Positions 31,137 through 38,672 of a stretch of 64,000 bases of DNA are shown piece by piece. Under the pieces are notes generated by a model, which worked only from the letters and a program-made list of their open reading frames with translations, was not told the origin of the DNA and searched no databases. The stretch's first letter is position 1; each line of letters begins with the position of its first letter. A program made the position numbers and the translations under genes. This DNA comes from Aquimarina sp. ERC-38 (GTDB lineage: Bacteria > Bacteroidota > Bacteroidia > Flavobacteriales > Flavobacteriaceae). The stretch spans positions 3,267,501 to 3,331,500 of the forward strand of contig NZ_CP098511.1 in the NCBI RefSeq assembly GCF_026222555.1, read 5' to 3'.

Positions 31137-31167
31137 TTCGTAATATGCCAGATTGTTCTTATTTTTG
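31137..31167 (+). promoter_or_regulatory. glyA promoter
   Basis: TATTTTTG at 31160-31167 matches the TAnnTTTG -7 box, and TTCG lies exactly 19 bases upstream (31137-31140), one mismatch from TTTG. Transcription from here would begin near 31173, which supports the ATG at 31192. Confidence 0.6.
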
Positions 31168-31191
31168 TATCCTATTTTAAAACAAAAAACA

Positions 31192-32466
31192 ATGCAACGC
31201 GACGAAAAGATTTTTGAGTTGATTGAAGAAGAAAAAGAAAGGCAGATCAACGGCTTAGAATTAATAGCTTCTGAAAATTTTGTTAGTGAACAGGTGATGG
31301 AAGCTGCTGGTTCTGTTCTTACGAATAAATATGCCGAAGGATATCCGGGTAAACGATATTACGGCGGTTGTGAAGTAGTTGATGTTGTAGAAAGAATAGC
31401 CATTGATAGGGCAAAAGAACTTTTTGGAGCTGAGTATGCTAATGTGCAACCACATTCCGGTTCGCAGGCGAATACGGCGGTATACCATGCTTGTTTAAAA
31501 CCAGGTGATAAAATCCTGGGCTTTGATTTATCTCATGGAGGGCACTTAACCCACGGTTCCCCGGTAAACTTTTCAGGTAAATTATATAATCCTGTTTTTT
31601 ACGGAGTTGAAGAAAGTACCGGAAGATTGGATTATGATAAAATTCAGGAAATCGCGACTCAGGAAAAACCACAACTAATTATTGCAGGAGCATCGGCTTA
31701 TTCCCGTGAAATTGATTATAAAAGATTTAGAGAAATTGCAGATAGTGTAAATGCTATTTTATTAGCTGATATTGCACATCCTGCAGGATTAATTGCTAAA
31801 GGCTTATTAAGTGATCCTGTACCGCATTGCCATATTGTAACTACGACTACTCATAAAACCCTAAGAGGTCCTAGGGGTGGTTTAATGATTATGGGTAAAG
31901 ATTTTGAAAACCCGTTCGGAATCACTTTAAAAAACGGTAAAAAACGAATGATGTCTTCTCTCTTAGACAGTGCCGTTTTTCCGGGTAACCAGGGAGGTCC
32001 GTTGGAACATATTATTGCAGCAAAAGCTATTGCTTTTAAAGAAGCTTTAAGTGATGAGTTTTTACACTATATGGTTCAGGTAAAAAAGAATGCTTCCGTG
32101 ATGGCACAGGCATTTATGGACAAAGGGTATAAAGTGATCTCCGGAGGTACAGACAATCATATGATGTTGATTGATTTACGGAATAAAAATGTATCCGGAA
32201 AAGAAGCCGAAGAAGCTTTAGGTAAGGCAGATATTACCCTTAATAAAAACATGGTGCCGTTTGATGATAAATCCCCGTTTGTGACTTCCGGAATTCGGAT
32301 TGGAACGGCGGCTATTACTACTCGTGGGTTAAAAGAAGATGATATGCAACGTATCGTCGAATTTGTTGATGAAGTAATTCAAAATATTAACGACGAATCT
32401 ATTTTAAAATCCGTTGGTGATAAAGTACATATGATGATGTCAGACATGTCGCTTTTTGTAGCGTAA
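31192..32466 (+). CDS. glyA: Serine hydroxymethyltransferase
   Basis: This 424-residue PLP enzyme interconverts serine and glycine and feeds one-carbon units to tetrahydrofolate. Signatures include [37 protein letters not shown], the PLP lysine in [14 protein letters not shown] near residue 222 and the [18 protein letters not shown] end region. A TTG 13 codons upstream is in frame, but it lies before the promoter's -7 box and its residues are not part of the family, so the ATG at 31192 is chosen. A hairpin terminator follows at 32511. Confidence 0.97.
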
Positions 32467-32510
32467 AGAATTGATAACTTTTTTAATGCTATTAAAAGTT
32501 AGTAACGAAG

Positions 32511-32540
32511 TGGTAAGGTTTTAAAGCCTTACCATTTTTT
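32511..32540 (+). terminator. glyA terminator
   Basis: TGGTAAGG and CCTTACCA form a perfect 8-bp stem with an 8-base loop, followed by six T residues. It lies 45 bp after the glyA stop. Confidence 0.85.
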
Positions 32541-32618
32541 ATATAATCAATACAGATAGATGCGAAATATATGAGAATGGTCAACCGATTTTGGCATTAT
32601 TGACTTAGCGGTATGTTT

Positions 32619-32807
32619 TTATTGAAGAACGATATCACTATCAATATGTAATTTTTAATGTAAGGCTTTTACAATAGTTAAAGTGATTTCTCTTTTTCCG
32701 TTTAAATAATCACTAATTCGGGAAGCACTGGTGTTTAATAAAACCGCCAGGTCTTTTCGTTTAAACATACGTGATTCAATTATTTCCTGTAGGGAAAGAA
32801 GTCTTGT
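32619..32807 (-). pseudogene. 5'-truncated XRE/HigA gene copy
   Basis: The minus strand encodes SLQEIIESRMFKRKDLAVLL, then ASRISDYLNGKREITL and a DSDIVLQ end, nearly the same as the last third of the intact HTH gene at 36667-37044. The copy lost its N-terminal two-thirds and four codons after SRMF. The frame is still open toward the island but has no plausible start, and the similarity stops near 32807, where cargo DNA begins. Confidence 0.8.
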
Positions 32808-32851
32808 AGCTTTTATATATTTGTTGGCAGTAAGTAAAAAAAGAATTGAAA

Positions 32852-33691
32852 ATGCAAAAACAAGAAAATATTAAAATACACGAAACAGCATTTGTAACTT
32901 CTACATTTCGCTCAATGAACGAAAACTTGAGTCAAGATTTTTTTTCAAAATTATGGGGAAATGAAAAAACTGAAATATGGATTAAGGAATACCTTAAAGA
33001 AGTTTCATCTGAGGAAACCTTCGCTCATTGTTTAAGAAACAGGTACTTCCTTGATAAAATTAGAGAAGTAATTAAAACTAACAATATTGAAGTCGTAATA
33101 AATTTTGGATGTGGTTTGAGTATGTACCCATTTCTATTAGATGAAAAATTAGTCAATATAGAAATTGACAAGGCTGAAATTATAGAATACAAGAAATCCA
33201 AAGTTGATATTTGGCAAACAACGGGTGCTCTTCCAAAACGAAATATTCATTTTATAGGTGTTGATTTAAGTAAAGATTACGAGCAAAAATTATTGGCTAA
33301 AATAAATTCAATAAAAAATAACAGACCCTGTTTTATACTAATTGAAGGGGTGTTGTTCTTTCTTAATAAAGAAGAAACAAACAAACTGTTTGACTTTTTT
33401 AATTTAATTCAAAATCAAGGTGATTTAATTGGTAGTGCCTCTTTCCAAGAATCATTAAAGGAAACTTTAGCGTTTAAAAAATTAATAATTTTCTTTGGTG
33501 GGAACGTTTCGAAAACAGGTGAAAGTGATTATCAAACAATACAAGATGAATATTATAGAAAAAGAAAAGAATATAAATTAATTGATCATCAAGATTATTT
33601 TAGTCTGTCAAAAAAATATGAGCATAAAATTGAATTGGAAAAAGACTTGATTTTAAATGAAAACTTTTATCTATTGGAAAAATCATCTTAA
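32852..33691 (+). CDS. Leucine carboxyl methyltransferase-family SAM methyltransferase
   Basis: This 279-residue protein (from the ATG at 32852; a TTG two codons earlier is also in frame) shows the COG3315/LCM pattern: the HETAFVTSTFRS N-terminus, the SAM-binding VVINFGCGLSMYPFLL segment near 95, the acidic VNIEIDKAEIIEYK strand that holds the ribose, and the FILIEGVLFFLNKEE post-motif. Bacterial members methylate small molecules, often polyketides or other natural products; the substrate here is unknown. It is the first gene of the island between glyA and the HTH gene, beginning right after a GTTGGCAG boundary sequence, and its codon use looks more AT-rich than that of glyA. Confidence 0.8.
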   Translation: MQKQENIKIHETAFVTSTFRSMNENLSQDFFSKLWGNEKTEIWIKEYLKEVSSEETFAHCLRNRYFLDKIREVIKTNNIEVVINFGCGLSMYPFLLDEKLVNIEIDKAEIIEYKKSKVDIWQTTGALPKRNIHFIGVDLSKDYEQKLLAKINSIKNNRPCFILIEGVLFFLNKEETNKLFDFFNLIQNQGDLIGSASFQESLKETLAFKKLIIFFGGNVSKTGESDYQTIQDEYYRKRKEYKLIDHQDYFSLSKKYEHKIELEKDLILNENFYLLEKSS

Positions 33692-33710
33692 AATGTAATA
33701 AAAACATTCT

Positions 33711-33904
33711 GCCAACAAGGTATAAAAAACATAGGGCGTTTGTGCTAAACCTAAAGTTCTGTTCATATTAGCAAAGTCCGCTAAATATAAAATTTGGCGT
33801 TTATAGGAGAAAAGATAAAAGCATGATATTTATATTTAGCTAAGTAATAAACCGAAACGAAAGTGCTTATAACATGCCCTACGTTTCTTATACTGAACGT
33901 TAGC
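33711..33904 (+). repeat. Imperfect palindrome ending the methyltransferase unit (attC-like)
   Basis: GCCAACAAGGTATAAAAAAC with ATAGGGC at the left pairs with GCCCTACGTTTCTTATAC and GAACGTTAGC at the right across a 194-bp segment. The outer arms are mismatched at several sites, as in integron attC sites. The outer ends (GCCAAC/GTTAGC) resemble core sites but do not match the RYYYAAC/GTTRRRY consensus. Confidence 0.55.
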
Positions 33905-33925
33905 GATCATTAAAGGAAAAAATAA

Positions 33926-34366
33926 ATGGAAATTAAAATAAGAGAAGCAAAACCATCAGAATTTGTAAATGTCTATAATTTAATAAAGGAATTTTCGGAA
34001 TTCATCAAAACGCCTGAAAAAGTGAAGATAACTCCTGAACAAATGGTTATGGATGAAAAGTATTTTAAATGTCTTATCGCTACTAATGGAAATATGATTC
34101 TAGGATTTGCAACATATTTTTTCTCCTATTACTCTTGGACAGGAAAAGCTATTTATTTAGATGACTTATACGTTCCTGAAAAATATCGAAATCAAGGTAT
34201 AGGAAGCAAGCTATTTGACAAGATAATCGAAATTGGAAAAACTGAAGATTGCTGTAAAATGAAATGGCAAGTGTCAAATTGGAATGAAAAAGCGCAAGAC
34301 TTTTATAAAGATAGAGGAGCAATTATTGATGATGTTGAAGTTAACTGTGATTTAGAATTGAATTAA
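33926..34366 (+). CDS. GNAT-family N-acetyltransferase
   Basis: This 146-residue protein covers a whole GNAT domain: the IKIREAKPSEFVNVYNLIKEF start, the IYLDDLYVPEKYRNQGIGSKLFDKI strand/P-loop with the acetyl-CoA motif RNQGIGS near 92-98, and the WQVSNWNEKAQDFYKDRGA segment. Similarity is to diamine/polyamine-type acetyltransferases (the YYSWTGKAIYLDDLYV region is typical). It is the second gene of the island, bounded on both sides by palindromic sites, one gene per unit. Confidence 0.85.
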   Translation: MEIKIREAKPSEFVNVYNLIKEFSEFIKTPEKVKITPEQMVMDEKYFKCLIATNGNMILGFATYFFSYYSWTGKAIYLDDLYVPEKYRNQGIGSKLFDKIIEIGKTEDCCKMKWQVSNWNEKAQDFYKDRGAIIDDVEVNCDLELN

Positions 34367-34370
34367 AAAA

Positions 34371-34450
34371 CGAGTTGCTAACACTATATAATAATACATA
34401 GCTGCCCTTTAGATCAGCAACGTTTGTTATACTAACCGTTACTCGCAAGC
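34371..34450 (+). repeat. Imperfect palindrome ending the GNAT unit (attC-like)
   Basis: CGAGTTGCTAACACTATATAAT at the left pairs in part with the right arm ending GTTATACTAACC-GTTACTCG over 80 bp. It begins 5 bp after the GNAT stop. The core layout (GCTAAC, a TATA-rich arm and a TATACTAACCGTTA arm) is the same as at 33711-33904, although the interior is shorter. Confidence 0.5.
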
Positions 34451-34490
34451 TAAAAAAACAACATAGATTAAATTTAATTTACAATCCTTA

Positions 34491-35738
34491 ATGAAAAACA
34501 TAGTATCAATTTTAATAATATTAACAATACTATTTTCGTGTAAACAAAATAGTGAAATCAAAAAAAACAATGAAAGAGATTTCACCGCTATAAACGATAC
34601 TTTAACTAAGGATTTACAAAAAGCCTTTGAGAAAGGTGCTATTATTGGGTTTTCTGTATCAGTAGTTGACGAAAACGGAGTGGTTTACGAAAACGGGTTT
34701 GGTTACAGAGATATAGAATTAGAAAAAAAGTATACACCAAATACGACTCAAAATATTGCTTCAATTTCTAAAACTTTAATAGGAGTTTCACTATTGAAAG
34801 CGCAAGAATTGGGAAAATTAAATTTGGATGACCCAATTAACAAATACCTTCCTTTCAAAATAACAAATCCCAATTATCCTGATAAACCAATTTTAATTAA
34901 ACATCTTGCATATCATTCATCTTCGATAATTGATGTTGATGAAGTGTATGCAAAGTCTTATGTTTTAAAAAAATCTAAACATAATGATAATGAAGGAGTA
35001 TATGATTGGTTTAGTATGCCCGAAAAGAGAATTTCACTCATCGAATTTCTCAATAATAGCCTTACTGAAAACGGGAAATGGTATACTAAAGAGATCTTTG
35101 CCAATATAGAACCTGGTGTAATGAGAAAATATTCAAACATTGGAGCTGCTCTTTGTGCACAAATAATTGAATATGCTACTGGACAAGATTACCAATCTTT
35201 TACAAAAGATTATATACTACAACCTTTAAAAATGACATCTTCAGGTTGGTCCTCAAAAGATATTGACACTACAAAACGTTCAAGATTATTTGCAAACAAA
35301 GAAATGCTTATAGCTGAATATTCCTTGATTACCTATGCAGACGGCGGTTTTATCACTTCAAATAACGATTTAGGATTGTTTTTAACAGAGTTAATGAAAG
35401 GCTACAAAGGTTCAGGCACACTTTTGAACAAAGAGAGTTATACGAAGTTGTTTAAAAAACAAAAATTCCCAAACGTAGAAACTGAACAAGAATTTGGGAT
35501 TTTTATGGAATTTAGTAAAGAGTTTATTAAAATTAAAGATGATGTAATTGGTCATAATGGGTCCGACCCAGGAGTTATGACTGCTATGTATTTTAATCCA
35601 AAAACTGAAACAGGTAAAATACTTTTAGTAAATACAGATTCAGATTTTAATGAAAATTTTTGGCCAGAAGTAGCATCAATTTGGAATTCATTGATTAAAT
35701 ACGAGACCGAATTGAACAGCGGGAAAGCCAGTAGGTAG
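34491..35738 (+). CDS. Serine hydrolase, beta-lactamase class C-like family, lipoprotein
   Basis: This 415-residue protein starts with a lipoprotein signal (MKNIVSILIILTILFSC, cysteine near 17). The penicillin-recognising fold shows SISKTLIG (nucleophile Ser with Lys three residues on), the RKYSNIGAAL motif in place of YxN, and HNGSDPG in place of KTG. Such proteins include DD-peptidases, esterases and real AmpC-like lactamases, and the sequence does not tell them apart. It is the third cargo gene of the island and follows the second palindromic boundary. Resistance is not implied. Confidence 0.85.
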   Translation: MKNIVSILIILTILFSCKQNSEIKKNNERDFTAINDTLTKDLQKAFEKGAIIGFSVSVVDENGVVYENGFGYRDIELEKKYTPNTTQNIASISKTLIGVSLLKAQELGKLNLDDPINKYLPFKITNPNYPDKPILIKHLAYHSSSIIDVDEVYAKSYVLKKSKHNDNEGVYDWFSMPEKRISLIEFLNNSLTENGKWYTKEIFANIEPGVMRKYSNIGAALCAQIIEYATGQDYQSFTKDYILQPLKMTSSGWSSKDIDTTKRSRLFANKEMLIAEYSLITYADGGFITSNNDLGLFLTELMKGYKGSGTLLNKESYTKLFKKQKFPNVETEQEFGIFMEFSKEFIKIKDDVIGHNGSDPGVMTAMYFNPKTETGKILLVNTDSDFNENFWPEVASIWNSLIKYETELNSGKASR

Positions 35739-36005
35739 CAACGGCTATAAGCAATGCGGAATTAAGTGCTTAAACCGAAAGAGATCGCAAATTCGCAATG
35801 ACCGCCAAAACCTTGTTTTGGCTCTGTGTTCAACTACAGTGTTAAATTAAAAGGCCAATTTTCTTACAATGTTTTGTTCTAAATTGAAAGTTATAGCTTT
35901 TAATATGCCAGTAACCGTCAGTAAAAATAAAAAATTTCACAAAAACCTTATTCTTAAAAATATTGGTGTAAATTTGATTTAATTATGAACCAATTACACT
36001 AAACT
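35739..36005. other. Intergenic segment with a half boundary site and the parDE promoter
   Basis: The start (AGCAACGGCTATAAGCAATG) resembles the left arm of the other boundary palindromes, but no convincing right arm was found. Near the right end TAAATTTG (35969-35976) matches the -7 consensus for the ParDE operon, and GTGTAA/TTACAC (35967-35972, 35995-36000) form a loose inverted repeat that could be a ParD operator. Confidence 0.4.
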
Positions 36006-36245
36006 ATGGTAAGACAAAGTATTTCTTTTACGCAACCAAATGATGAATGGTTAAAATTGCAAGTAAATAGCAAAGAGTATTCTAGTAAAAGTGAATTGAT
36101 TAATGATTTGATAAGACAGGCTAGAAATCAACAAACTCAAATAGACTGGATTAGAGCCAAACTAGATAGAGCTGAGCAAACTGGATTTACAAAGGATTCA
36201 AAACAAGATATTTTAGCAGAAGCGAAATTACGATTGAATGGCTAA
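36006..36245 (+). CDS. parD: ParD-like ribbon-helix-helix antitoxin
   Basis: This 79-residue protein begins with a ribbon-helix-helix (RQSISFTQPNDEWLKLQVNS, KEYSSKSELINDLIRQA, residues 3-40), the ParD/CopG type that binds its own promoter. The C-terminal helix (WIRAKLDRAEQTGF, KQDILAEAK) would wrap the toxin. It overlaps the ParE gene by 8 bp. The pair forms a complete type II toxin-antitoxin operon at the right end of the island, a common stabilising cargo. Confidence 0.92.
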   Translation: MVRQSISFTQPNDEWLKLQVNSKEYSSKSELINDLIRQARNQQTQIDWIRAKLDRAEQTGFTKDSKQDILAEAKLRLNG

Positions 36246-36531
36246 ATACAAATTGAGTAATGAAGCAAAAGAAGATTTAATACGAATTTATAAATACGGA
36301 ATTAAAAAATTTGGAGAGATTCAAGCTGATAAATATTTTGACTTATTCTTTGAATATTTTGACACTATAGCAGATAGGCCATTCTCTTTTGAGGCTGTGG
36401 ATTATATTAAAGATGGTTATAGACGCTGCCCTTGTGGAGTTGATAGTATTTATTACAAAATTAATAATGATAATATGGTAGAAATAATAGCTATTGTAGG
36501 ACGTCAAGACTTAAAAAACATTTTCGAATAA
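36238..36531 (+). CDS. parE: ParE/RelE-superfamily toxin
   Basis: This 97-residue protein matches ParE: AKYKLSNEAKEDLIRIYKYG at the start, GEIQADKYFDLFFEYFDTIAD as the helical hairpin, and the RRCPCGVDSIYYKINNDNMVEIIAIVGRQD strands. ParE toxins poison DNA gyrase. The frame is intact, unlike the HigB gene near 3.5 kb. The ATG overlaps parD, and a hairpin terminator follows 21 bp after the stop. Confidence 0.92.
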   Translation: MAKYKLSNEAKEDLIRIYKYGIKKFGEIQADKYFDLFFEYFDTIADRPFSFEAVDYIKDGYRRCPCGVDSIYYKINNDNMVEIIAIVGRQDLKNIFE

Positions 36532-36537
36532 TATAAA

Positions 36538-36868
36538 AGAAGTAGGTAACAAAGTGGTAAGGTTTTAATGCCCTACCACTTTTTATATAATTAATCAATT
36601 CAAATAGCTTTAAAATGTATAAGAATTGTCAACAGGTGTGTAGAATATTAGCCTGGTGATATCTTTTTATTGGAGAATGATATCACTATCAATATTTAAT
36701 TTTTGATGTAAGGCCTTTGCAATATTTAAAGTGATTTCTCTTTTTCCATTCAGGTAATCACTAATTCGGGAAGCACTGGTGTTTAATAAAACCGCTAGGT
36801 CTTTTCTTTTTAATCCCATTTCAAACATACGTAATTCAATCATTTCCTGTAAGGAAGGAAGTCCTATA
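36538..36868. repeat. Right copy of the direct repeat flanking the accessory island
   Basis: This copy matches 32498-32807 and includes a terminator and the 3' half of the intact HTH gene. Together the copies bracket about 3.7 kb of cargo. Confidence 0.75.
36553..36584 (+). terminator. parDE terminator
   Basis: AGTGGTAAGG and CCCTACCACT form a 10-bp stem with one mismatch around TTTTAATG, followed by TTTT. It is the island-side copy of the glyA terminator. Confidence 0.75.
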
Positions 36869-37044
36869 GGAAAATGAGTTTCTTCATATTGTTCAATAGT
36901 ATCTGTAATAACTTCAAATTCTTTCCCTAAAGGGCTATCGATAGGTGTCTGATCGTCAACACGATCAATTAATTCTTCTAAACGAAGATTTGCCTTTATA
37001 TAATCCTTATATGTTATTGATTTTTTCATGTTTCTATAGTTCAT
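36667..37044 (-). CDS. XRE/HigA-family HTH protein (orphan antitoxin-like)
   Basis: From the ATG at 37044 the protein has 125 residues. The N-terminal half (DYIKANLRLEELIDRVDD, then EFEVITDTIEQYEETHFPI) is typical of HigA proteins. The helix-turn-helix is in MGLKRKDLAVLLNTSASRIS, YLNGKREITL near 80-112. The start overlaps the stop of the upstream lipoprotein gene (TGATG), so it is probably co-transcribed. No HigB partner lies nearby. The 3' part was duplicated at 32619-32807. Confidence 0.8.
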   Translation of the reverse strand: MNYRNMKKSITYKDYIKANLRLEELIDRVDDQTPIDSPLGKEFEVITDTIEQYEETHFPIGLPSLQEMIELRMFEMGLKRKDLAVLLNTSASRISDYLNGKREITLNIAKALHQKLNIDSDIILQ

Positions 37045-38672
37045 CAATTCCCATCTTCCTCTCGATCTCTAAACATCACACTTTCATAAGCACCAATATC
37101 CGGAGCATTCATATCCCTCGTTTTTCCGGTAATATCTACGCCCATACCCGGTGCCGTTGCTTTTCCGTCTGCTGCTGATTCTTCACCTATATTTAGAAAA
37201 TTCTGGCTTTTTCTACGTAAATCTAAGTCTGTATCATCATCGGTAAAACGGTCGAGATTTCTTCTGTAATCTGCATCTTCATTCAAGATAATATCGCGGT
37301 ACAAAGCAGTATCAGTAAAATCATACAATTCCGGGTTTTCCGGTTCAGTACTGGGGGGTGTATATTGAATTAAACAATTTTTAAAATTAAAGTTAAAGGC
37401 AGCCTGATCGGTTTTATTAAAACCAATCTCTTGCTGACGGTTACCGTTAATAATACAATTAGTAAAATTAGCTTCAACCAGGTCAGCAATTACTAAGGTT
37501 GCCTCATCTGTATTGGGGTTCACCAGTATATTATTATCAATAAGTACAGAAGGAAATTCTCTTTGAGAACCGTTTTGCCAGTAATTAGCAAACGTACAAT
37601 GTTCAAAATTGTAAATACCGCCCAGAGAACAACTAACGGCAACCTGTCCGGCATTATTGATTACTACATTTTCACCCCTTACGTTTCCGGTTCGCATCAA
37701 TAACCCCACGTTGGACTGGTTATAAATTTGCGTATTTGTAATTTCTAGGGTAGGATCGGTACCACCATCGTTAGAAGCCATTAAAATTCCGACGGTTCCG
37801 TTTTTAATAGTAGCATGGTTTATTTTATGATTAGTGCTTCCTGCAGTTAACCAGATAAAACCCCATTGTCCCGGTATTTCGCTAAATTCTGGTTCCAGGC
37901 GGTCACCTTCAAAAATGACTTCATTTTCTTGTAATAACGGATCGGTACTTACCTCTCCATTTACTTGTAATGACGCCATATTTGCAGCAATCAGGCCTGA
38001 GTTTTCGTGAAAATGGATTCTGGTACCTGCCTCTATGGTTAAGGTTTTTTCCGGTGGAATCGCTGCAAATCCGTAGATGACATAGGGCTTTTCGTTGGTA
38101 AACGTAAGTTCATCATCATCCAGGAAAAAACCTTCAATTCGTATTTCATCTTCATTCTCGTCCAAACCTAAAAGTAAAGTTTCCGTTTCCCCGGTCATAT
38201 TATCACGCGAAGGAAATAAAAATACCGCGTCTTTTATCAAGGTAACCAAATCAACATCTTGCTGATTGCCATCCGGGTCAAAAAGAATCTGATCGGTGTA
38301 TAAAAATTCAGTTTCAGAAGATTGTTGTGTGATGTCGGTTGTAGTTTCAACAAAAATAAAAATACTGTCTTTTGCTAAAATCTGTATATCGTTAAAAGAA
38401 GTACCCGCAATTCCATCCACATTTAAGCGGTAATTTGAGGCTTCCCCATTTCTTAAAGTAATTCTTGGAATAGTAAAATCATCTCCCGTTCTATTATACA
38501 CTTTAAATTGATAAGTACTTGAACTAATATTAGAAAAGATAGTATCTAGGACTAAGGTATCCGTTGAAAATTCAAGGTTTCCCGTACTAGGCTCCGAATC
38601 AAAATCCTTTCGGCAAGAACTCCAAAAGATAATCGTAAAACAGGAAATTAAAACAAAAATATATTTTTTCAT
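37044..38672 (-). CDS. Right-handed beta-helix repeat lipoprotein
   Basis: This 542-residue protein has a lipoprotein signal (MKKYIFVLISCFTIIFWSSC, lipid-modified Cys near 20). The N-terminal third resembles the Ig-like domain of Bacteroidota surface lipoproteins. After that come parallel beta-helix rungs, such as INHATIKNGTVGILMASN, ITNTQIYNQSNVGLLMRTG, VVINNAGQVAVSCSLGG and FTNCIINGNRQ. These often bind or cut polysaccharide, but no catalytic set was identified. A conserved VGADITGKTRD-type C-terminal motif (MGVDITGKTRDMNAPDIGAYE) is present. It is outside the island and was probably next to glyA before the insertion. Confidence 0.8.
   Translation of the reverse strand: MKKYIFVLISCFTIIFWSSCRKDFDSEPSTGNLEFSTDTLVLDTIFSNISSSTYQFKVYNRTGDDFTIPRITLRNGEASNYRLNVDGIAGTSFNDIQILAKDSIFIFVETTTDITQQSSETEFLYTDQILFDPDGNQQDVDLVTLIKDAVFLFPSRDNMTGETETLLLGLDENEDEIRIEGFFLDDDELTFTNEKPYVIYGFAAIPPEKTLTIEAGTRIHFHENSGLIAANMASLQVNGEVSTDPLLQENEVIFEGDRLEPEFSEIPGQWGFIWLTAGSTNHKINHATIKNGTVGILMASNDGGTDPTLEITNTQIYNQSNVGLLMRTGNVRGENVVINNAGQVAVSCSLGGIYNFEHCTFANYWQNGSQREFPSVLIDNNILVNPNTDEATLVIADLVEANFTNCIINGNRQQEIGFNKTDQAAFNFNFKNCLIQYTPPSTEPENPELYDFTDTALYRDIILNEDADYRRNLDRFTDDDTDLDLRRKSQNFLNIGEESAADGKATAPGMGVDITGKTRDMNAPDIGAYESVMFRDREEDGN

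Follow-up and report, generated by a model that had tools for sequence, protein, structure and literature searches.

The window that we analyzed is a stretch of 64,000 nucleotides from Aquimarina sp. ERC-38 (contig NZ_CP098511.1, positions 3,267,501 to 3,331,500), a member of the Flavobacteriaceae. Near its middle lie three single genes on the same strand, which encode a methyltransferase, a GNAT acetyltransferase, and a serine hydrolase, and which are separated by palindromes. The initial annotation, made from the sequence alone, took these genes for a cassette array, and its gene calls are confirmed by the coordinates and by Pfam. In integrons, a cassette consists of one gene and an attC palindrome, and the R box of attC has the consensus GTTRRRY/RYYYAAC. 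We will argue that the window very probably contains three decayed cassettes from a widespread integron-like platform of Bacteroidota, for which we propose a mechanism based on crossover at GTT. The tyrosine recombinase (TYR) and the site code of this platform appear to differ from those of integrons. The features of the array are as follows (F0, F4, and F6 are families of sites).

32813..32825, + strand: 5' boundary half site, TTATATATTTGTT; by eye, closest to TATATATTTTTGTTGGCAGTAA of locus L073
32823..32825, + strand: GTT, the presumed crossover position in the 5' half site; resembles the attI-type TATA-n-GTT behind TYR genes
32826..32832, + strand: start box of cassette 1, GGCAGTA; agrees with the reverse-complemented end box at 6/7 positions
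32846..33691, + strand: gene of cassette 1, leucine carboxyl methyltransferase-like (LCM-type; PF04072); first ATG at 32852
33707..33713, + strand: end box of cassette 1, TTCTGCC
33714..33901, + strand: site 1, family F0, 188 bp; imperfect palindrome AAC-n3-GTATAA...TTATAC-n5-GTT, with AAC at 33714 and GTT ending at 33901
33926..34366, + strand: gene of cassette 2, GNAT acetyltransferase (PF00583); the boxes of this cassette, AGCGATC and AGCAACT, agree at only 4/7 positions and are decayed
34380..34440, + strand: site 2, 61 bp, F0-type, internally deleted
34491..35738, + strand: gene of cassette 3, serine hydrolase (PF00144, Beta-lactamase)
35740..35800, + strand: third site, left half only (AACGGCTATAAGCAATGCGG); resembles families F4/F6 by eye

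Several finer points of the initial annotation hold up. It described the sequence before the first gene as close to the inverse of the left arm of site 1, and GTTGGCAG at this boundary is the exact reverse complement of CTGCCAAC, which precedes site 1. It gave the second palindrome the same plan as the first, and the 25-nt arms of the two sites are 72% (left) and 76% (right) identical (1/2000 and 0/2000 shuffles were as good, respectively); to judge by this alignment, site 2 seems to have arisen from a copy of site 1 by internal deletion. The half site that it placed after the serine hydrolase begins at 35740, and no right half was found for this third site (35740..35800). Because the start and end boxes of cassette 3 do not match, we consider this cassette to be damaged or fused.

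Folding energy does not set these palindromes apart from shuffled sequences (z = -1.47 for site 1, -0.02 for site 2, and -1.00 for the region of site 3), which weighs against our interpretation, and a scan of the window for the right-arm pattern gave 3 matches, as compared to 3.14 expected. (A loose regular-expression scan for cores returned only noise and was dropped.) The case for the sites therefore rests on their recurrence. The 211-bp stretch from 33700 to 33910 has 17 blastn matches in its own genome, including itself (E = 1.9e-106 to 2.9e-6), and the matches to site 1 are scattered over 11 places. With an iterated profile, we identified 22 full or partial sites (E < 1e-10) in the window and the ten other stretches that we fetched. 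When at most five candidates were scored per genome, site 1 had matches in 44 of 149 family genomes, including its own, with up to 94% identity in another genome.

The structure of the sites is also conserved. Across 37 non-redundant F0 sites, a stem of 16 pairs is kept in 88.6% of cells. In the same sites, 65 cells have changes on both strands, as compared to 20.9 ± 3.2 in shuffles (0/500 were as good), although kinship among sequences can also exceed shuffles. Sliding the partner strand by 1-3 columns abolishes the signal, in a comparison that favors the structure because it was derived from these same sequences. By eye, the left spacer is about 3 nt and the right spacer is about 4-6 nt, and they are unequal, as in attC. 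No Rfam family scored above its gathering score in the three loci that we searched (L074, L080, and L261). We consider the palindromes in the window to be confirmed as real.

In genomes with long contigs, the sites lie mostly on one strand, and several of the site-bearing contigs encode a TYR of 355-387 amino acids (aa). The first such loci (L047-L055) were fetched because TYR and sites lay on the same contig. Since these loci were noticed by co-occurrence, we repeated the test starting from the recombinase. We selected 20 loci of up to 20 kb (L067-L086) that had the top scores for TIGR02249, the family of integron integrases (IntI), and enough flank; these were chosen blind to sites, although some of their genomes already had F0 matches. 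The further sets were the best 80 loci of a scan over named genomes (L095-L174), 14 TYR loci from the same genus, and 20 loci from the phylum.

The TYRs of the 20 anchored loci are mostly 370-440 aa long (those of L072 and L076 are shorter). When each locus was compared to itself by eye, about 13/20 had repeats on the 3' side of TYR, and many of these repeats were 120-160 bp. Profiles from eight seed sites identified a total of 80 sites, distributed over 15/20 loci, and all 80 were on the strand of TYR and 3' of it. The same-genus loci gave the same result: 39 sites in 11/14 loci, 39/39 of them on the TYR strand and on its 3' side (as read by eye from coordinates). The window's family, F0, is present in 9 of these 11 site-bearing loci. 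Sites within a locus are more alike (mean identity 0.65) than sites from different loci (0.49). A correlation with a tyrosine recombinase, which the initial annotation had raised, is thus found in both TYR-anchored sets; the exceptions (L014, L047, and L051) lie outside these sets.

Most TYRs have an N-terminal extension of about 95 aa. Among the best 80 loci, the contig stops less than 2 kb 3' of an N-extended TYR in 18/36 cases and less than 2 kb 5' of it in 5/36 cases, versus 14/44 and 6/44 for the other loci. Such an excess of 3' contig ends is what arrays of repeats would cause. The loci with the most repeat blocks were from Rufibacter sp. SYSU D00344 (13 blocks), Flavobacterium enshiense DK69 (11), Algibacter onchidii (10), and Seonamhaeicola aphaedonensis (6).

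Directly outside the GTT and AAC of each site lies a variable box. Among 163 sites, AAC was recognizable in 133 and GTT in 126, which gave 71 neighboring pairs. When the six nt that follow GTT are compared to the reverse complement of the six that precede the next AAC, they agree at 4.85 positions on average, and 47 of the 71 pairs match at 5 or more of the 6 positions. Across 2,000 shuffles of the ends, the mean was 2.20 and the maximum was 12 such pairs. If the boxes of a single site are compared instead, the mean is 2.19 and 5/109 reach 5 or more. The matches extend for at most 7 nt and then stop. Complementarity between the two ends of a cassette would be needed if a circular cassette were to recombine by crossover at GTT.

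We also searched for cassettes without any model of the sites, as GTT-box...box'-AAC segments that are joined by 45-230 nt. On one strand of 100 loci, there were 36 chains of at least two linked cassettes, and the longest had eight. A Markov control of 1.5 Mb, with both strands searched, had 4 chains of two. As the test treats the two strands almost alike, this corresponds to about 2 per strand. A few of the chains in the 100 loci, such as L118, may be due to chance.

To describe typical cassettes, we used 88 that had been picked for exact 7/7 boxes, from 31 of 56 loci. Their median length is 686 bp, and the start codon is a median of 28 nt past GTT. The core consists of GTT and a 7-nt box that is specific to the cassette and follows R-B-V-N-N-H-M, with rare exceptions. 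As the initial annotation had noted for the window, the cores do not fit the integron consensus, and the consensus of this set is likewise not GTTRRRY. An exact 10-bp inverted repeat (GTT-box...box'-AAC) encloses many of the genes, and in relatives, the palindromes mostly border single-gene cassettes, as had been suggested. Of the 31 loci with exact-box cassettes, 17 have an attI-like GTT with a matching box within 120 nt behind the TYR stop codon. By eye, the context of this GTT is often TATA-n-GTT, and many loci have a palindrome in front of it. This layout is that of an integrase, attI, and cassettes. A related observation comes from the mobilizable plasmid pls1 of Pontibacter kalidii (L176), where TYR is followed by three exact box-matched segments.

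The exact inverted repeats around many genes might instead suggest a shufflon-like system, in which TYR inverts box-flanked genes on double-stranded DNA. Indeed, 5/79 of the longest ORFs (open reading frames of at least 60 aa) in these cassettes are reversed. But the other 74 run along the site strand, and inversion would leave the sharing of cassettes between genera, at attI, unexplained. We consider a shufflon very unlikely.

Another alternative is that the palindromes are miniature inverted-repeat transposable elements (MITEs) or intergenic repeats like the repetitive extragenic palindromes (REPs), and do not mark any unit of recombination. The scatter of the sites in ERC-38 over 11 places would fit with this, as would our failure to find an intact close TYR in that genome. 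However, it would not explain why 119/119 sites in the two anchored sets are on the TYR strand and on its 3' side (exceptions occur elsewhere, in L014, L047, and L051), or why the boxes couple the ends of gene segments rather than the ends of the repeats. Also, different genomes share gene segments whose edges are at GTT and AAC. In the relatives, this alternative is already contradicted, and overall we consider it highly improbable.

The shared segments include a cassette that is present in both Algoriphagus ornithinivorans and Sediminicola (G056), whose 151-aa proteins are 97% identical; the similarity of the DNA begins in the GTT region. A 3.7-kb cassette with two genes is 87% identical, from GTT on, between G087 and G167, and it is the first cassette behind TYR in G167. 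A third shared cassette still has its end box in five family genomes and in a metagenome-assembled genome from the Sphingobacteriales, with one letter changed in one case; we assign the sites that come next to families F0, F1, and, by eye, F4. A cassette encoding a DUF3885 protein is 92% identical from GTT to AAC between G403 and G068, and then the sites are unlike each other (identity 0.58). Among 20 loci with homologs of the C69 cassette (L241-L260), the end box is present before AAC in 5, once with one letter changed, and in two of these 5, the start box is present behind GTT as well. The remaining loci have ordinary or decayed genes.

For five pairs of homologous cassettes, we compared the identity of the cassettes to the identity of the sites behind them. 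The values were 0.86/0.43, 0.78/0.44, 0.78/0.61, 0.92/0.58, and 0.87/0.65, and the background from shuffled sites was 0.49 (maximum 0.59). These pairs are few and hand-picked, with arm scores of at least 7; C69_G129, C69_G102, C72_G098, and CE_G166 were left out because their site ends were doubtful (arm scores of 4-6 out of 9). Because the sites behind homologous cassettes are unlike, the site was not inherited with the gene in these pairs. There is also a counterexample, L214 and L121, which have the same gene and have retained related sites. Around this gene, the box is GTAAGTA in L214 and GTGGTTA in L121, and each box is exactly complementary to the box at its own other end. Taken at face value, these sequences imply that both boxes were rewritten in a coordinated way.

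Given these results, we propose the following mechanism. A working platform would comprise TYR, an attI-like GTT just behind it, and a one-strand array of mostly single-gene cassettes between imperfect palindromes. A cassette excised by a single crossover at GTT between two sites would close into a circle, and pairing between its own 7-nt boxes would then complete the outer stem of the hairpin site. This folded single strand would be the substrate of TYR, and the GTT of attI or of a different site would be its partner. The sequences show the anatomy, the strand and side rule in the two TYR-anchored sets, the complementarity of the boxes, the covariation of the stem, and the sharing of cassettes with edges at GTT and AAC; the circle, the single-stranded substrate, and catalysis by TYR are inferred.

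Besides the folding energies, several other observations weigh against this proposal. The strand rule has exceptions: TYR is divergent from the sites in L047 and L051, and in L014, which is from ERC-38 itself, 2 of the 4 sites are on the other strand. Five of the 20 TYR-anchored loci have no site of families F0-F7. (Of these, L071 and L084 have exact-box cassettes, L067 and L072 end too soon, and the TYR of L076 has internal stops.) Conversely, L079, L082, and L083 contain sites and have no cassette that passes the exact-box test. Of the 71 neighboring pairs, 24 fall below 5/6; many of these are long and may contain sites that escaped detection, but some may be genuine exceptions. Only 8 of the 20 phylum loci, which are from genomes with few contigs, have a chain of at least two cassettes. 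Among the best 80 loci, if we consider those with over 1.5 kb behind TYR, at least two repeat blocks are found there in 9/20 loci with an N-extended TYR and in 6/34 loci without the extension. In the window, the boxes of cassettes 2 and 3 are poor: the start and end boxes match at 6/7 positions for cassette 1, at 4/7 for cassette 2, and not at all for cassette 3. Finally, a simple model of integrons does not foresee the swapping of sites at AAC.

Are these true integrons by descent, so that TYR is IntI minus its insertion and the sites are divergent attC? The anatomy is the same, and TYR and IntI have a common C-terminal end that resembles (R/K)(S/N)PLD. Also, the six TYRs that we compared to NCBIfam models scored 180-210 bits against TIGR02249 (cut-off 265), with XerC and XerD lower for all six. 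But NF040815 (XerA) scored higher than TIGR02249 in 6/6, at 188-236 bits, and 2/6 exceeded its cut-off of 220. When we aligned these TYRs, all six lacked an insertion of about 45 residues that is present in IntI1 and in two IntI proteins from the phylum. TYR mostly comprises the N-terminal extension and a XerA/IntI-like core that lacks the IntI insertion. None of the 149 family genomes encodes an IntI above the TIGR02249 cut-off. In a phylogenetic test with 54 self-chosen rows out of 137 collected recombinases, placing the array TYRs and IntI in one clade was rejected (approximately unbiased test, p-AU = 0.021), while the array TYRs by themselves may form one clade (p-AU = 0.17). The group was named after the first tree was inspected, and we regard these tree results as suggestive only. 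The box is not GTTRRRY, and the sites switch at AAC between some homologous cassettes. Descent from true integrons therefore seems doubtful to us. A somewhat better candidate, which we put forward tentatively and which is still short of an even chance, is that Bacteroidota evolved the platform independently by way of a XerA-like recombinase. The gene unit would then run from GTT-box to box'-AAC, the array of the host would supply the site, and both boxes would be rewritten together.

Classical IntI is not absent from the phylum: 84 of 296 phylum genomes have an IntI above the cut-off, including, among those listed, one in the window's class. This is more than the survey passages cited below led us to expect. 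Of the phylum genomes that we sampled, 91/395 have relatives of TYR (E ≤ 1e-60), and these cover 57/171 genera, counting relatives that lack arrays. Many TYRs carry the automatic name "site-specific tyrosine recombinase/integron integrase" from NCBI.

The proposed platform is most similar to sedentary chromosomal integrons. Both have one recombinase gene, an adjacent attI, and a one-strand array of mostly single-gene cassettes in which the gene starts near the start of the cassette. In both, the sites are imperfect palindromes with inner and outer arms, unequal spacers, and GTT/AAC cores, and sites within a locus are more alike. Unlike those integrons, TYR lacks the IntI insertion and is mostly N-extended, the array is mostly 3' of the TYR gene, a free 7-nt box follows GTT, and in several pairs, the site was not inherited with the gene. 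The array in the window resembles an integrase-free array, as it has sites and cassettes and no working integrase nearby, but its sites are not canonical attC. TYR resembles the XerA-type recombinases, whose NF040815 is the best-scoring NCBIfam model for the six TYRs; in contrast to them, TYR is N-extended and often has a cassette array behind it, and the relatives without the extension have repeats less often.

In ERC-38, the only close match to TYR that we found contains several stops and is a pseudogene (2813757-2814743); there is also a 51-aa fragment. The genome's other matches are recombinases of 300-328 aa with 33-40% identity. Two sites lie 3' of the pseudogene and on its strand, and two opposite-strand sites lie on its other side (L014). 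Because the genome shows only this pseudogene of TYR, we view the array in the window as decayed; it is probably immobile unless a TYR from outside acts on it. The idea of an unusual Bacteroidota-type cassette system is therefore supported in relatives; in the genome where it was proposed, only a remnant of an array is present, and the close copy of TYR is broken. Across the genus, 14/22 genomes have a match to TYR with E ≤ 1e-60, including this pseudogene.

The array lies behind glyA (31153-32466). In 10/10 loci from congeners, a 201-aa gene lies behind glyA, either directly or past extra genes, and in 9/10, this is followed by 518-aa and 468-aa neighbors that are also found in the window. 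The part of the window from 32.5 to 37.3 kb had no blastn match in these 10 loci, which contain other genes there, although in G153, one of the congeners, a decayed F0 site lies at the equivalent position behind glyA. So, the alternative that the initial annotation had allowed for, a conserved chromosomal block, fails. We also examined homologs of the methyltransferase in 10 other family genomes and saw no convincing pair of boxes or cassette.

We did not find a published account of such arrays in Bacteroidota in the titles and abstract openings of the open-licence literature. The NCBI label already exists for the TYR family; a description of its arrays was not found. Integrons are reported from Bacteroidota in a list in PMC8618304, and intI is reported from the Bacteroidetes/Chlorobi group in PMC2426708. 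A passage on IntegronFinder 2.0 mentions only a single complete integron, that of Salinibacter, from Bacteroidetes proper, in addition to earlier In0 elements (PMC9024848), and a definition of integrons in PMC9668308 includes the additional domain that is specific to IntI (for related literature, see passages in PMC8138268, PMC8946536, and PMC8352920). The platform is apparently an undescribed system for swapping genes that is widespread in Bacteroidota. If our interpretation holds, a cassette system that tools based on IntI and attC miss operates in much of the class. It would also offer a second natural experiment on how a tyrosine recombinase adopts folded sites, here without the IntI insertion. 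The swapping of sites would open the origin of cassettes to testing. If gene and site can be exchanged separately, this would give a direct route to the birth of cassettes and to host-specific sites, which is an open question for integrons.

Next to the third, partial site of the window, on its 3' side, lies a toxin-antitoxin pair of the parDE type (36006..36531, + strand; PF03693 and PF05016), which is possibly further cassette content. Its closest copies among the loci that we compared adjoin an F0 site in G051 (L062), with 68-73% identity. The array is also flanked by direct repeats (32496-32809 and 36540-36869) that are 82-88% identical. A helix-turn-helix (antitoxin-like) gene at 36667-37047 has its 3' end duplicated, with the truncated copy directly before the first cassette.

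Some of the sites in ERC-38 adjoin a transposase. A 507-aa ORF abuts the left end of three sites (L010 6101-7624, L014 7772-9295, and L017 12146-13669), and the one copy that we scanned is a DDE transposase of the DDE_Tnp_1_6/DUF772 type. Four sites in this genome have an identical junction sequence upstream, and three of these four are beside the 507-aa transposase gene. The junctions look as if an insertion sequence (IS) targeted the AAC core of the site. Integron-associated IS elements that target attC form the IS1111-attC group. The 507-aa transposase gene resembles these in lying beside sites, but it is of the DDE_Tnp_1_6/DUF772 type and not IS110/IS1111.

Two other observations concern the TYR loci of relatives. 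A family of 122-127-aa proteins from 26 genomes (for instance, L099 9545-9922 and L205 18601-18969) has no match in Pfam, as judged from two members; in the examples that we checked, the gene is divergent and just 5' of TYR, and it is possibly a regulator. The congener G167 (L203 and L204) has two near-identical TYR genes, each with its own sites behind it.

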